The notes beneath the pieces were generated by a model. That model was not told the origin of the DNA. It saw only the letters and a list, made by a program, of their open reading frames with translations, and made no database searches. A DNA stretch of 64,000 nt, taken from Ectobacillus sp. JY-23. GTDB taxonomy: Bacteria > Bacillota > Bacilli > Bacillales > Bacillaceae_G. The stretch lies in assembly GCF_023022965.1 (NCBI RefSeq), contig NZ_CP095462.1, forward strand, positions 1,550,001 through 1,614,000, in the 5' to 3' direction. Positions 36,800-40,450 of the stretch are shown here, piece after piece (positions within the stretch are counted from its first letter, which is position 1; every line of letters begins with the position of its first letter). A program made the position numbers and the translations under genes.

Positions 36800-38137
36800 T
36801 TATGTTGACCTCTGTTTGGTTAGTACGGAAACAATTATTAATAGGCATAGCACACCTAAACACACACCCATGCTAATTCTATTTTGAGGGTTTAGCATAA
36901 AAATCACACATATAACAGTTAACACAAGTGCTGTAAATAAAGAGATATAAGGAAATCCCCATACCTTAAAGGAGGGTTGCTTTTCATACGTTTTACGCAA
37001 TTTTACTTGAGCCAAACAAATGCTAATCCATACAATTGAAACGGTAAATCCGGGAATTGCCATAAGATAACCAAAAATGCGATCTGGTGAGAGATAAGCA
37101 ATAAAAGAGCCGCCAATTAGTATAACTGCACTACATATTAATCCATATAAAGGAATTCCCTTCTTCGATACATAAGCAAACCACTTAGGTGCTTCTCCTT
37201 CCATTGCTAATGAATGTAACATTCGTGTACATCCATATAAGCCAGAATTTGCTGCTGAGAGAACCGCGGTGATTAATACAAAGTTCATGATGTGGGCAGC
37301 CGAGGAGAAACCTACCGTCGATAATACTTGTACAAACGGGCTACTATCTCCGCTAAGCTGGTTCCACGGAATAAGTCCACAAATAATAAGAATTGGTAGT
37401 GTGTAAAATAATACAATTCTAACAATCACACCTCTTACAACCTTAGGCAACACTTTCTCCGCATTTTTTGTTTCATTTAAAGTAAGACCGATTAATTCTG
37501 AACCGCCATAAGAAAAGATGACAACGAGTAAAGCAGAGACAACACCGCTAAAGCCTTTTGGAAAAAAACCTTCATTTGTATAGTTTTGTAAGTAATCTAC
37601 TTGGTTACTTGGGATAATATCAAATAAAATACCTGCTCCTAATAGAATGAACAACACAATCATCGTAATTTTAATACCTGCAAACCAAAATTCAAATTCT
37701 CCGTAATGCTTAACACTTAAGAAATTAATTGCGACAATCCCTGATGCACATAACACACTTAATGTCCATAACGGTATTGACGGAAACCAGTATTGTAAAA
37801 AGCTTCCCGCAGCAATAACCTCAATAATACAAACAACAAGCCACATAAAACAATACAACCAACCGATAACAAAAGATACACGCGTTCCAAAAGCCTTATG
37901 AATAAAACCTTTCATATTTGTGTCTGGATACGCTATTGCCATTTCCGCAATGGCAGTCATTACCACAAGTAAGAGCAAACCTGCAAATATATAGGACAGT
38001 ACTACAGCCGGCCCAGCGATGGAAACTGTTTCGGAGGTGCCTTTAAAGATCCCTGTTCCTATTGCTCCCCCAAGTGCCATGAAACGAATATGTCTTGGCA
38101 ATAGCTTTTTTTGTAACTCTGTTTGATTTGTGCTCAT
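36800..38137 (-). CDS. APC-family amino-acid permease, probably for phenylalanine
   Basis: A 445-residue polytopic transporter of the AAT group, about twelve helices. The N-terminal motif ALGGAIGTGIFKGT is the unwound substrate-binding helix, and SYGGSELIGLTLNE in the middle is typical of GABA, aromatic and basic amino-acid permeases. The substrate cannot be read from the protein, but two tandem T-box leaders upstream both show a TTC (Phe) specifier, so phenylalanine or aromatic uptake induced by uncharged tRNA-Phe is the best inference. Confidence 0.85.
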   Translation of the reverse strand: MSTNQTELQKKLLPRHIRFMALGGAIGTGIFKGTSETVSIAGPAVVLSYIFAGLLLLVVMTAIAEMAIAYPDTNMKGFIHKAFGTRVSFVIGWLYCFMWLVVCIIEVIAAGSFLQYWFPSIPLWTLSVLCASGIVAINFLSVKHYGEFEFWFAGIKITMIVLFILLGAGILFDIIPSNQVDYLQNYTNEGFFPKGFSGVVSALLVVIFSYGGSELIGLTLNETKNAEKVLPKVVRGVIVRIVLFYTLPILIICGLIPWNQLSGDSSPFVQVLSTVGFSSAAHIMNFVLITAVLSAANSGLYGCTRMLHSLAMEGEAPKWFAYVSKKGIPLYGLICSAVILIGGSFIAYLSPDRIFGYLMAIPGFTVSIVWISICLAQVKLRKTYEKQPSFKVWGFPYISLFTALVLTVICVIFMLNPQNRISMGVCLGVLCLLIIVSVLTKQRST

Positions 38138-38206: not shown

Positions 38207-38475
38207 TAAAAAATCGTCCCTGCCGAATTATATCGGCAGGGACGATAAAACCGCGGTACCACCCTGATTACGGACACTTTATTATCCGTCACTCTTCTTT
38301 GTTAACGATCAACATGACCGTCTTTCCCTTCATGAAATAGCTTCACTACGAAAAAGATGCTCCAGGAGCGAAATTCATGTGTTCATTTGTACCGGTTCGC
38401 ACCCTCCACCGGCTCTCTGCAAACAAAATTATACACACTACTATATAGGTACAAACAAAAAATCAACATCCCTTT
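38207..38475 (-). promoter_or_regulatory. T-box riboswitch, proximal copy (specifier TTC, Phe)
   Basis: In transcript order: AGTA then GTGTGT pairs with ACACAT, ATTTTGT with ACAAAT, and the AGAGAGCCGG distal stem closes with CCGGT. The specifier loop reads GAAT-TTC-G (specifier 38370-38372). The T-box GGGTGGTACCGCGG (38251-38264) and a 14-base terminator stem with T run (38207-38246) follow. The UGGU bulge fits an ACCA tRNA end. The lower stem I is not clear. Confidence 0.88.
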
Positions 38476-38592
38476 TAAACGAGAGAAAAGAGCAAGCTAT
38501 CTTTGCACTTTCGTCCTTTTATCATTGTTATGTTGGAAAATTTGTTGCACTTATAAATTCCCTTCATCACATACAATATAAAATTAAAAAAC

Positions 38593-38866
38593 AAAAAGTC
38601 CCTGCTGATATATCAGCAGGGACTTATAGATATAAGCGGTACCACCCTAATTGCGGAAAAACTCCGCCTCTTTGCTTTGTTAACGATCATATGACCGTCT
38701 TTTTCTTCATGAAATAGCTTCACTACGAAAAAGATGCTCCAGGACTGAAATTCACATTTACCTATATACTGATTTCCACCAACCATCAGCTCTCTAGAAT
38801 AGGGAGGTAAATCCTACTTGTATTCCCTTCATTGCTTTATAAATATTAAAAGTCGTATAAGTATGG
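38593..38866 (-). promoter_or_regulatory. T-box riboswitch, distal copy (specifier TTC, Phe)
   Basis: It starts just below a strong promoter. ATTTACCT pairs with AGGTAAAT above the specifier loop, which reads GAAT-TTC-A (specifier 38747-38749). AGGGTGGTACCGC (38636-38648) and a perfect 15-base terminator stem with T run (38593-38625) follow. It is a second complete T-box in series with the one nearer the permease. Confidence 0.88.
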
Positions 38867-38871
38867 GACTC

Positions 38872-38901
38872 ATTATAAAATGTTCTCTAGTAATCTGTCA
38901 A
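38872..38901 (-). promoter_or_regulatory. promoter of the tandem T-box leader
   Basis: The minus strand has consensus TTGACA, 18 bases, consensus TATAAT, immediately downstream of the M20 hydrolase gene. Confidence 0.85.
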
Positions 38902-38910
38902 CAAGATTTA

Positions 38911-40077
38911 TTATTTTTGCAGTAGGTCAAATGCAGCTTGCACAAATAAAGATGTTCCCATAAGCAATGAATCCTCATCAATGGTAAAGCGTGGATGATG
39001 ATGCGGATATACAATTCCCTTCCTCTCGTTGCGCGCTCCGATGAAGAAAAAACAGCCGGGCGCTTTTTGTAAATATGCCGAAAAATCTTCTCCTCCCATT
39101 GTAGGCTCTGGATAAACAATAGCTTCTTTTCCAAATAACTTTATTGCTGTTTGTTCAATCTGTTTTGTCACCTCGTCGGCATTTACAACAGGTCGATAAC
39201 CGTATATAAAATCAAACGAATAGGAAGCACCATGCGCTTCTGTAATTCCTTTCACAATTTGCTCAATACGCTTTGCAGTTTCTTCCCTCAGCTCTTGTTT
39301 CATCGTACGGACAGTGCCACCAATTGTCGCATGCTCTGGTATTACGTTGTGGGCTGTACCGGCATGAAATTGCGTAACAGATACAACAAGGGGCTCAAAT
39401 GGGTTGGTATTGCGTGAGACAATCTGCTGTAAATTGGATACAATTTGCGTACCAATTGCTAAGCAGTCTACCGTTTCGTGTGGTATACCTGCATGTCCTC
39501 CCTTACCAGACACCGTAATCGTAAATGCATCAGGCGATGCCATCATTTTGCCGTATACGATACCAATTTTACCCACCTCGATGGGAGACCAAAGATGCGC
39601 CCCTATCACATAATCCACGCCATCCATAACACCATTGTCTACCATCTCCTGCGCGCCGCCCGGGAATTCCTCTTCTGCGTGCTGAAACAAAAATCGTACT
39701 TCTCCTTGAAGTTCATCTCGTCTGTACGCCAGCTCTTGCGCTGCTCCAAGTAACATAGCTGTATGTCCATCATGCCCGCAAGCATGCATCACGCCTGGCT
39801 TTTGTGAAACAAACGCAAAATCATTTTCCTCTTGAATTGCCAAAGCATCCATATCAGCTCGGATTGCCAATACAGGCCCTGGTTTGGCGCCAATTAGTCT
39901 GCCCATCACACTATACCTGGTAGGACGCGTTACTTCTACATGCGGAAAAGATTGTAGTGTTTCATATACAAACTGCGATGTATTCTCCTCTTGAAAGGAT
40001 AACTCCGGATTCATATGTAAGTATCTTCGCCATGCAACCAATTGTTCTTTTGTAACACGATTCATTACCGCGCTCAT
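38911..40077 (-). CDS. M20 family amidohydrolase / N-acyl amino-acid deacetylase
   Basis: A 388-residue zinc hydrolase of the M20D family. Metal ligands are in RADMDAL, MHACGHDGHTAMLL and FQHAEEEFPGGA, and GGEDFSAYL is the C-terminal catalytic-domain motif; a dimerisation domain is inserted in the middle. Relatives release amino acids from N-acyl conjugates. The position directly upstream of the Phe-T-box permease is suggestive, but the strong promoter between them makes it a separate unit. Confidence 0.9.
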   Translation of the reverse strand: MSAVMNRVTKEQLVAWRRYLHMNPELSFQEENTSQFVYETLQSFPHVEVTRPTRYSVMGRLIGAKPGPVLAIRADMDALAIQEENDFAFVSQKPGVMHACGHDGHTAMLLGAAQELAYRRDELQGEVRFLFQHAEEEFPGGAQEMVDNGVMDGVDYVIGAHLWSPIEVGKIGIVYGKMMASPDAFTITVSGKGGHAGIPHETVDCLAIGTQIVSNLQQIVSRNTNPFEPLVVSVTQFHAGTAHNVIPEHATIGGTVRTMKQELREETAKRIEQIVKGITEAHGASYSFDFIYGYRPVVNADEVTKQIEQTAIKLFGKEAIVYPEPTMGGEDFSAYLQKAPGCFFFIGARNERKGIVYPHHHPRFTIDEDSLLMGTSLFVQAAFDLLQK

Positions 40078-40135: not shown

Positions 40136-40450
40136 TTATAAAAACAAGAAGCAAAGACCTATAATCACACCGGAATATAACAAGTTAATAACACAAAAGC
40201 CCATAATATCTCTCGCACCCAAGCCTGCGATTGCTAATGCAGGAAGCGCCCAAAACGGTTGGATGAGATTTGTCCAGGCATCACCCCAAGCAATTGCCAT
40301 CGCTGTTTTTGCAGCAGACACAACAAGCTCTGCACCAGCTGGAATCATAATAGGGGCCTGCACAGCCCACTGTCCCCCGCCGGATGGAACAAACACATTA
40401 ATCAAGCCAGTGCTTAAAAAAGTGAATAAAGGAAATGTTATTTCATTATT
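40136..40450 (-). pseudogene. AtoE-type short-chain fatty acid transporter, C-terminal remnant
   Basis: About 100 residues matching the end of AtoE/TIGR00366 transporters (normally about 440). INVFVPSGGGQWAVQAPIMI and AWGDAWTNLIQPFWALPALA are well conserved. The open frame continues upstream to LPLFTF-like sequence (FPLFTFLSTG) and is closed by a stop near 40451; the first three quarters of the gene are gone. No ribosome binding site is present. Confidence 0.82.

Follow-up and report, generated by a model that had tools for sequence, protein, structure and literature searches.

The closest described relatives of the leader reported here are the tandem T-boxes of the Bacillota, a phylum in which such tandems are enriched and for which a digital response has already been proposed (PMC12452182); a 2020 review gave their mode of action as unknown (PMC7583486). 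These statements, like the others drawn from the literature below, refer to the accessible parts of the sources. In the trp, ilv-leu, thrS and met ABC operons (PMC12452182) and at trpE of Bacillus methanolicus (PMC4342826), two complete T-boxes with their own terminators share one leader, much as at our locus, and the digital or pseudo-cooperative response proposed for the Bacillota tandems is the one we would expect here. Our locus differs in that the available passages of these two reports mention neither a phenylalanine pair on an APC permease nor a repeat within a unit. The pneumococcal trp leader is likewise a tandem with a small interspersed repeat in one composite transcript, but in the excerpted text (PMC3049150) the BOX repeat lies between the T-boxes, whereas in our case Stem I of the second unit is interrupted by a repeat. 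Control of an amino-acid transporter by a phenylalanine T-box, as here, has been described in the Bacillus cereus group, where re-aiming from tyrosine to phenylalanine was proposed; the accessible text mentions one T-box and a transporter of the NSS family, whereas we find a pair and an APC permease (PMC2494555). The two T-boxes of the Clostridioides difficile homoserine dehydrogenase gene, presumed to bind two tRNAs, are a precedent for the Phe/Tyr orthologues described below, albeit on another gene and, in the portion of that paper at hand, with no mention of an orthologue series with changing codons (PMC11477304). Serial ON/ON attenuators were predicted to form an AND gate in the T box-Leu/ppGpp arrangement, similar to what we expect here, but the second sensor is there a ppGpp riboswitch, and Table 2, within the accessible part of that report, has no T box/T box gate (PMC9481103). 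A steeper tandem response of the p-squared type has also been proposed in two of these reports (PMC12452182, PMC9481103).

Our literature search returned no phenylalanine pair on this permease, no Phe/Tyr pair (earlier T-box surveys may list such pairs) and no report of a repeat element within a T-box. A same-codon tandem is an established type of control; the interrupted second unit and the codon series in relatives are what goes beyond it here.

We analysed a window of 64,000 nt, positions 1550001-1614000 of the 3.89-Mb single-contig genome of Ectobacillus sp. JY-23, in which the leader and the permease gene both lie on the minus strand. Judged by its permease, 98% identical to that of Ectobacillus antri, the host is probably a near relative of that species. 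According to our reading, to which we assign a probability of about 0.75, a serial pair of T-boxes sensing tRNA-Phe would act by transcription attenuation on the gene of a permease that probably takes aromatic amino acids; the second unit would be functional despite a MITE-like repeat within it, and in relatives one or both units have been re-aimed to tRNA-Tyr.

Anatomy of the leader and its specifier codons

A first-pass annotation of this DNA had claimed two T-boxes in series, both specifying phenylalanine, each with its own specifier, T-box sequence and terminator, behind a single consensus promoter and ahead of an amino-acid permease. All of these parts were located on the minus strand (Table 1), and the Rfam covariance search it had proposed gave three RF00230 matches in the window, with both units of the leader above the gathering score of 93. 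Two sensors, each with a terminator of its own, thereby follow one promoter matching the consensus at 12/12 positions, and no strong promoter lies between them. A scan of the 3.6-kb region returned 9 promoter-like sites against 10.6 expected by shuffling, and we consequently place weight only on the 12/12 match; terminators numbered 7 against 2.9 by shuffling.

Table 1. Features of the tandem T-box leader and its surroundings, in window coordinates.
Feature	Position	Strand	Basis
Sigma-A type promoter TTGACA-18-TATAAT, ahead of unit 1	38872..38901	-	12/12 consensus match
T-box unit 1, Rfam match	38841-38615	-	RF00230, 147 bits, E 6e-33
T-box unit 1 including terminator	38596..38841	-	Rfam, terminator stem and compensatory changes
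Specifier UUC (Phe) of unit 1, GAAU-UUC-A	38747..38749	-	strand reading; frame from orthologues
T-box sequence AGGGUGGUACCGC of unit 1	38636..38648	-	read from strand
Terminator 1 stem	38625-38596	-	terminator scan
Unit 2 Stem I 5' strand AUGUGAUGAAGGGAAUU (lower helix and kink-turn strand)	38556..38572	-	homology to other unit 2s
Inserted repeat element, 114 nt	38442..38555	-	copies elsewhere in genome; end-to-end hairpin
T-box unit 2, Rfam match	38458-38235	-	RF00230, 116.8 bits, E 3.6e-25
Unit 2 loop-E AGUA	38442-38439	-	first A at 38442
Unit 2 remainder, loop-E strand AGUA to terminator 2	38213..38441	-	Rfam, terminator and conservation
Specifier UUC (Phe) of unit 2, GAAU-UUC-G	38370..38372	-	UUC or UAC here in 16/16 orthologues read
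T-box sequence AGGGUGGUACCGC of unit 2	38253..38265	-	read from strand
Terminator 2	38246-38213	-	terminator scan
Permease, APC superfamily, 445 aa, regulated gene	36800..38137	-	Pfam PF00324, E 4.9e-100
Third T-box of the window (the alaS T-box of the first-pass annotation)	62701-62497		RF00230, 94.9 bits

The reading frame of the specifier, which had been fixed by alignment with the alaS T-box, is backed by the orthologues. Both units of Bacillus sp. 165 (L037, L154) have GAAA-UUC, where the fourth base differs and UUC is retained, and within the Gottfriedia group the triplet switches between UUC and UAC; together these two observations identify the codon as the triplet following GAAN. The alternative frame GAA-UUU was rejected, since the base following GAA is U or A and UUC remains unchanged in Bacillus sp. 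165. UUC is the specifier in 99% of the phenylalanine T-boxes in TBDB, according to the accessible text of its description (PMC7778990). The genome contains tRNA-Phe genes with anticodon GAA; in the two that were read the discriminator position is A and CCA is not encoded, and as the discriminator base is A in both, the UGGU of both T-boxes fits tRNA-Phe.

Covariation supports the predicted folds of both units, with compensatory changes in 10/57 consensus pairs of unit 1 and 11/59 of unit 2 (10 sequences each), counted on a consensus predicted by RNAalifold in which some pairs lie outside the T-box model (e.g. A2 columns 77-80/181-184). The two alignments (A2 and A3) each hold 10 of 16 orthologues; 11 were prepared, and unit 2 of G012 and unit 1 of G009 were omitted. 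Unconstrained minimum-energy folds of units 1 and 2 were no better than those of shuffles (z -0.10 and -0.62), nor was the unconstrained fold of the Ectobacillus antri stretch with the element described below (z +0.79). The two units of the window are identical at 179/236 aligned positions. Long identical stretches occur in the Stem III regions (38760-38680 in unit 1, 38380-38300 in unit 2), and unit 1 of E. antri differs in this region, as if unit 1 of the window had recently been copied from unit 2.

A repeat element within Stem I of the second unit

Both T-boxes had been described as complete. This is true of unit 1, whereas unit 2 is not a plain T-box, since a repeat is inserted in its Stem I. 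Within Stem I the element occupies the strand that faces the specifier codon, where it separates the loop-E AGUA from the lower-helix and kink-turn strand at 38572-38556. The kink-turn strand, with the sequence UGCAAUGAAGGGA or close to it, stands 40-41 nt before AGAGAGC in 14/14 other unit 2s; its counterpart in the window, UGUGAUGAAGGGA, stands 153 nt before it, some 113 nt further away. Position 38458, at which the Rfam match starts, was rejected as the beginning of unit 2, given that the homologue of the 5' strand was found at 38572-38556, and the true span of the unit is likely to be 38572-38213 rather than 38458-38235. The extra segment was also considered as a third, degenerate T-box; this was ruled out by the existence of copies of the repeat elsewhere in the genome.

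At E 0.001 or better, copies were found at three further sites of the same genome and one in E. antri, and at none in 18 other relatives. A model of the right end of the element (63 positions, built from 6 copies) had, at E up to 0.1, at least 53 matches in the same genome and at least 85 in E. antri, among the best 150 of 2321 and the best 150 of 2309 candidates, respectively. Weaker matches in Ectobacillus G003 (at least 133, best 2.2e-6) and in G002 (at least 3, best 0.026) may belong to another family or be due to chance. Twelve of the stronger further matches were read by eye, with both exact ends present in 7, the right end only in 3 and neither in 2; both ends were present in 2 of the 4 copies first found. 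The ends, TATATAAGT and ACTTATATA, are inverted and, judged by eye, compatible with a TA target, and 7 copies span 162-186 nt. Family members lie, for example, at G000:C1:3114680-3114742, 1531539-1531601, 1289628-1289689 and 2751586-2751649 (G000 being the genome of the window). Dispersed copies, in the numbers given above, combined with terminal inverted repeats are the features of a MITE-like repeat; the copies in the leaders of the window and of E. antri (L031) gave no Rfam match at or above gathering score. The copy in the E. antri leader measures 171 nt, and 57 nt from its middle are absent from the window copy, the ends of which are degenerate and still paired in the predicted fold. Most likely, a MITE-like repeat was inserted into Stem I of unit 2 in a common ancestor of the two species.

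Does the second unit still work? It could be hypothesized that the repeat broke it, so that tRNA no longer binds, transcription is held back almost constantly at terminator 2 and unit 1 alone regulates a nearly silent permease. The base of Stem I is split by 114 nt, and in the Rfam alignment, where unit 2 scores below unit 1, it appears broken and with mismatches. Moreover, the predicted energies favor another structure: with the element included, a T-box fold of Stem I with an extruded hairpin reached -43.0 against -48.3 for the free optimum, a forced fold 5.3 kcal/mol less stable in which the base of Stem I can pair, by a model that leaves the kink-turn and loop-E contacts out of account. 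However, the pattern of conservation points the other way. Between the window and E. antri the stretch from AGUA to the terminator, specifier and T-box sequence included, has remained identical at 225/229 positions since the insertion, and the 5' strand with its spacer (38556-38595) at 38/39. Unit 1 (227/246, p 0.0024 against unit 2), the element itself (104/114 plus the 57-nt gap, p 0.0033) and the fourfold sites of the permease gene (169/198, p 5e-7) are all less conserved, figures that come from this one species pair; the promoter flank is identical at 56/64 positions and the stretch before the start codon at 65/74. The permease has likewise been kept, at 98% identity with 8 amino-acid differences. 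Since unit 2 is better conserved than unit 1, the element and the fourfold sites, it probably retains its function, selection on it after the insertion being the simplest reading, and we regard a broken unit as unlikely.

A structural route to a functional unit 2 is suggested by the element, which is predicted to form one hairpin over its full length in both species (-24.0 kcal/mol in the window, z -1.93, 13/200 shuffles as good; -41.0 kcal/mol in E. antri, z -2.07, 5/200 shuffles as good), with modest support from the shuffles. Owing to this fold the two strands of Stem I would be brought together: the transcribed repeat would most likely extrude as a hairpin, the halves of Stem I would meet, and unit 2 would function. 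The inserted element can be seen as a natural test of what Stem I of a T-box tolerates.

The element could also bear on the leader in another way, by supplying an internal promoter from which unit 2 and the permease would in addition be transcribed independently of unit 1, with no series logic. A promoter between the units was what the first-pass annotation had named as speaking against its claim. No strong site was found there, the best being a 9/12 match with a 15-nt spacer (TTGATT-15-TATAGT) at the right end of the element; E. antri has TTGATT-16-TATAGT and two more 9/12 sites in or beside its element. The 3.6-kb scan of the window sequence, with spacers of 16-18 nt, however, gave no site at the element, and RNA starting at the element site would begin within Stem I, lack its 5' half and be expected to stop at terminator 2. 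A 9/12 site within unit 2 (38305-38276), returned by the 3.6-kb scan, would likewise face terminator 2. Furthermore, the pair is kept without the element, at a spacing of 267-282 nt, in 14 orthologues, namely that of Ectobacillus G003 and 13 from outside the genus. We find an internal promoter highly improbable as an explanation, and favor two units acting in series from the promoter ahead of unit 1.

Conservation of the pair and re-aiming of its codons

The pair is conserved yet not universal. Two sets of permease loci were compared, which overlap (G004=L033, G007=L036, G006=L037, G001=L031, G011=L034) and are not independent. From the named genomes the best 80 permease loci were taken and 20 checked with Rfam: five carry a pair (L031, L033, L034, L036, L037), three a single T-box (L035, L038, L107) and 12 none, and a looser motif scan of all 80 pointed to the same eight T-box-bearing loci. 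Three orthologues of this set lack the pair at 75% identity or more, two with one T-box (L035 at 76%, L038 at 75%) and one with none (L032 at 78%). The second set, chosen by kinship, consists of 29 permease loci of related genomes, scanned on both strands; 20 have the pair, one has a single T-box (L160, GAAA-UUC), and eight have none, among them those of G040 (68% identity) and G002 (57%). At 75% identity or more, the pair is present in 16/16 kinship orthologues, and so is the 12/12 promoter TTGACA-18-TATAAT ahead of unit 1. These 16 comprise three Ectobacillus genomes (that of the window, G001 and G003), one of another genus (G006) and 12 of a single genus, taken as Gottfriedia since G011 is Gottfriedia acidiceleris (L034); a thirteenth genome assigned to it, G016, has no orthologue at this identity.

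Specifier codons in all 16 pairs are UUC or UAC, that is, aromatic. Seven orthologues are Phe/Phe (G000, G001, G003, G004, G006, G007, G009), seven Phe/Tyr (G008, G010, G011, G013, G014, G017, G018) and two Tyr/Tyr (G012, G015). Mapped on a tree of permease DNA, the codons require a minimum of two changes in unit 1 and three in unit 2, at least five in total, a count that should be taken as rough since 7/13 inner branches have support below 80. The orthologue series displays how a tRNA sensor can be re-aimed by one base, UUC to UAC. On the basis of these codons, the Phe/Tyr orthologues should behave as two-input Phe-AND-Tyr gates and the Tyr/Tyr orthologues as gates for tyrosine only.

It might be argued that the pair is plain redundancy left by a tandem duplication, with no steep response under selection. 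The long identical stretches in Stem III (179/236 positions overall) suggest duplication or gene conversion, and the single T-boxes of L035 and L038 demonstrate that one unit can serve. Against this, both units with aromatic specifiers have been kept in every one of the 16 kinship orthologues at 75% identity or more, and the specifiers of units 1 and 2 have changed separately. We therefore hold redundancy to be improbable and prefer a pair maintained as a serial switch. A stronger proposition combines both novel features: that a transposon-derived hairpin is accepted in a working unit 2 that binds tRNA-Phe, its specifier-loop strand interrupted by a MITE-like element of 114-171 nt, and that the tandem of the sister genus is now a natural Phe-AND-Tyr gate, reached by the single-base change from UUC to UAC along a series of Phe/Phe, Phe/Tyr and Tyr/Tyr. 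We rate the chances of this combined proposition as even. Since gene, promoter and architecture are fixed in this natural series and two codons vary, it renders the AND-gate claim testable.

Tyr/Tyr pairs were also seen at permeases of lower identity (49-54%) in G001, G003, G016 and G031, at loci L116 (E. antri), L119 (Ectobacillus G003), L161 and L164. In the genome of the window no second permease was found at this level, the next best being about 34-35% identical.

The permease and the expected response

As the first-pass annotation had stated, the gene downstream encodes an amino-acid permease (Table 1). No NCBIfam family reached its cut-off among 25 of 28 families, for which reason the substrate is not assigned by homology; among solved structures, the closest in sequence is that of a lysine-specific permease (E 4.8e-68). 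The permease probably takes aromatic amino acids, a class suggested by the aromatic specifier codons, and the specifiers thus hint at a substrate class where the curated models (25 of 28) assign none.

How would such a leader respond? RNA from the promoter would run into two independent terminators, both of which would form when tRNA-Phe is charged. Uncharged tRNA-Phe bound to a unit, by its anticodon (GAA:UUC) and its 3' end (to UGGU), would prevent the terminator of that unit, and the permease would be reached only by transcripts that capture uncharged tRNA-Phe at each unit in turn. With a passage probability p per unit the output would approximate p squared. Consequently, as read-through needs both binding events, resting output should be low and the response steeper than with one T-box. 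An AND-like, pseudo-cooperative response, as had been proposed for this leader along with read-through only when tRNA-Phe is uncharged, is borne out as an expectation, and a serial pseudo-cooperative switch is our best reading, with the dependence on tRNA inferred from the leader sequence.

First-pass annotation had also taken tandem T-boxes to be uncommon. This is not supported, since they are enriched in the Bacillota (PMC12452182) and four other pairs occur in the genome of the window. Among its 30 T-box matches these pairs lie at G000:C1:1390333-1390975, 3099164-3099634, 3449741-3450417 and 641092-641529, the last one below the Rfam cut-off. Their target genes, named from a reading of the translations, are in the same order an NhaC-like transporter (UAC/UAC), an aromatic-pathway gene (UAC/UAC), trpE and a second threonyl-tRNA synthetase-like gene. 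Megablast returned no plasmid relatives. Upstream of the leader, the window contains a gene of the M20 peptidase family (38911-40077), and beyond it an 89-codon frame (40136-40405) that looks by eye like a terminal fragment of a transporter gene.
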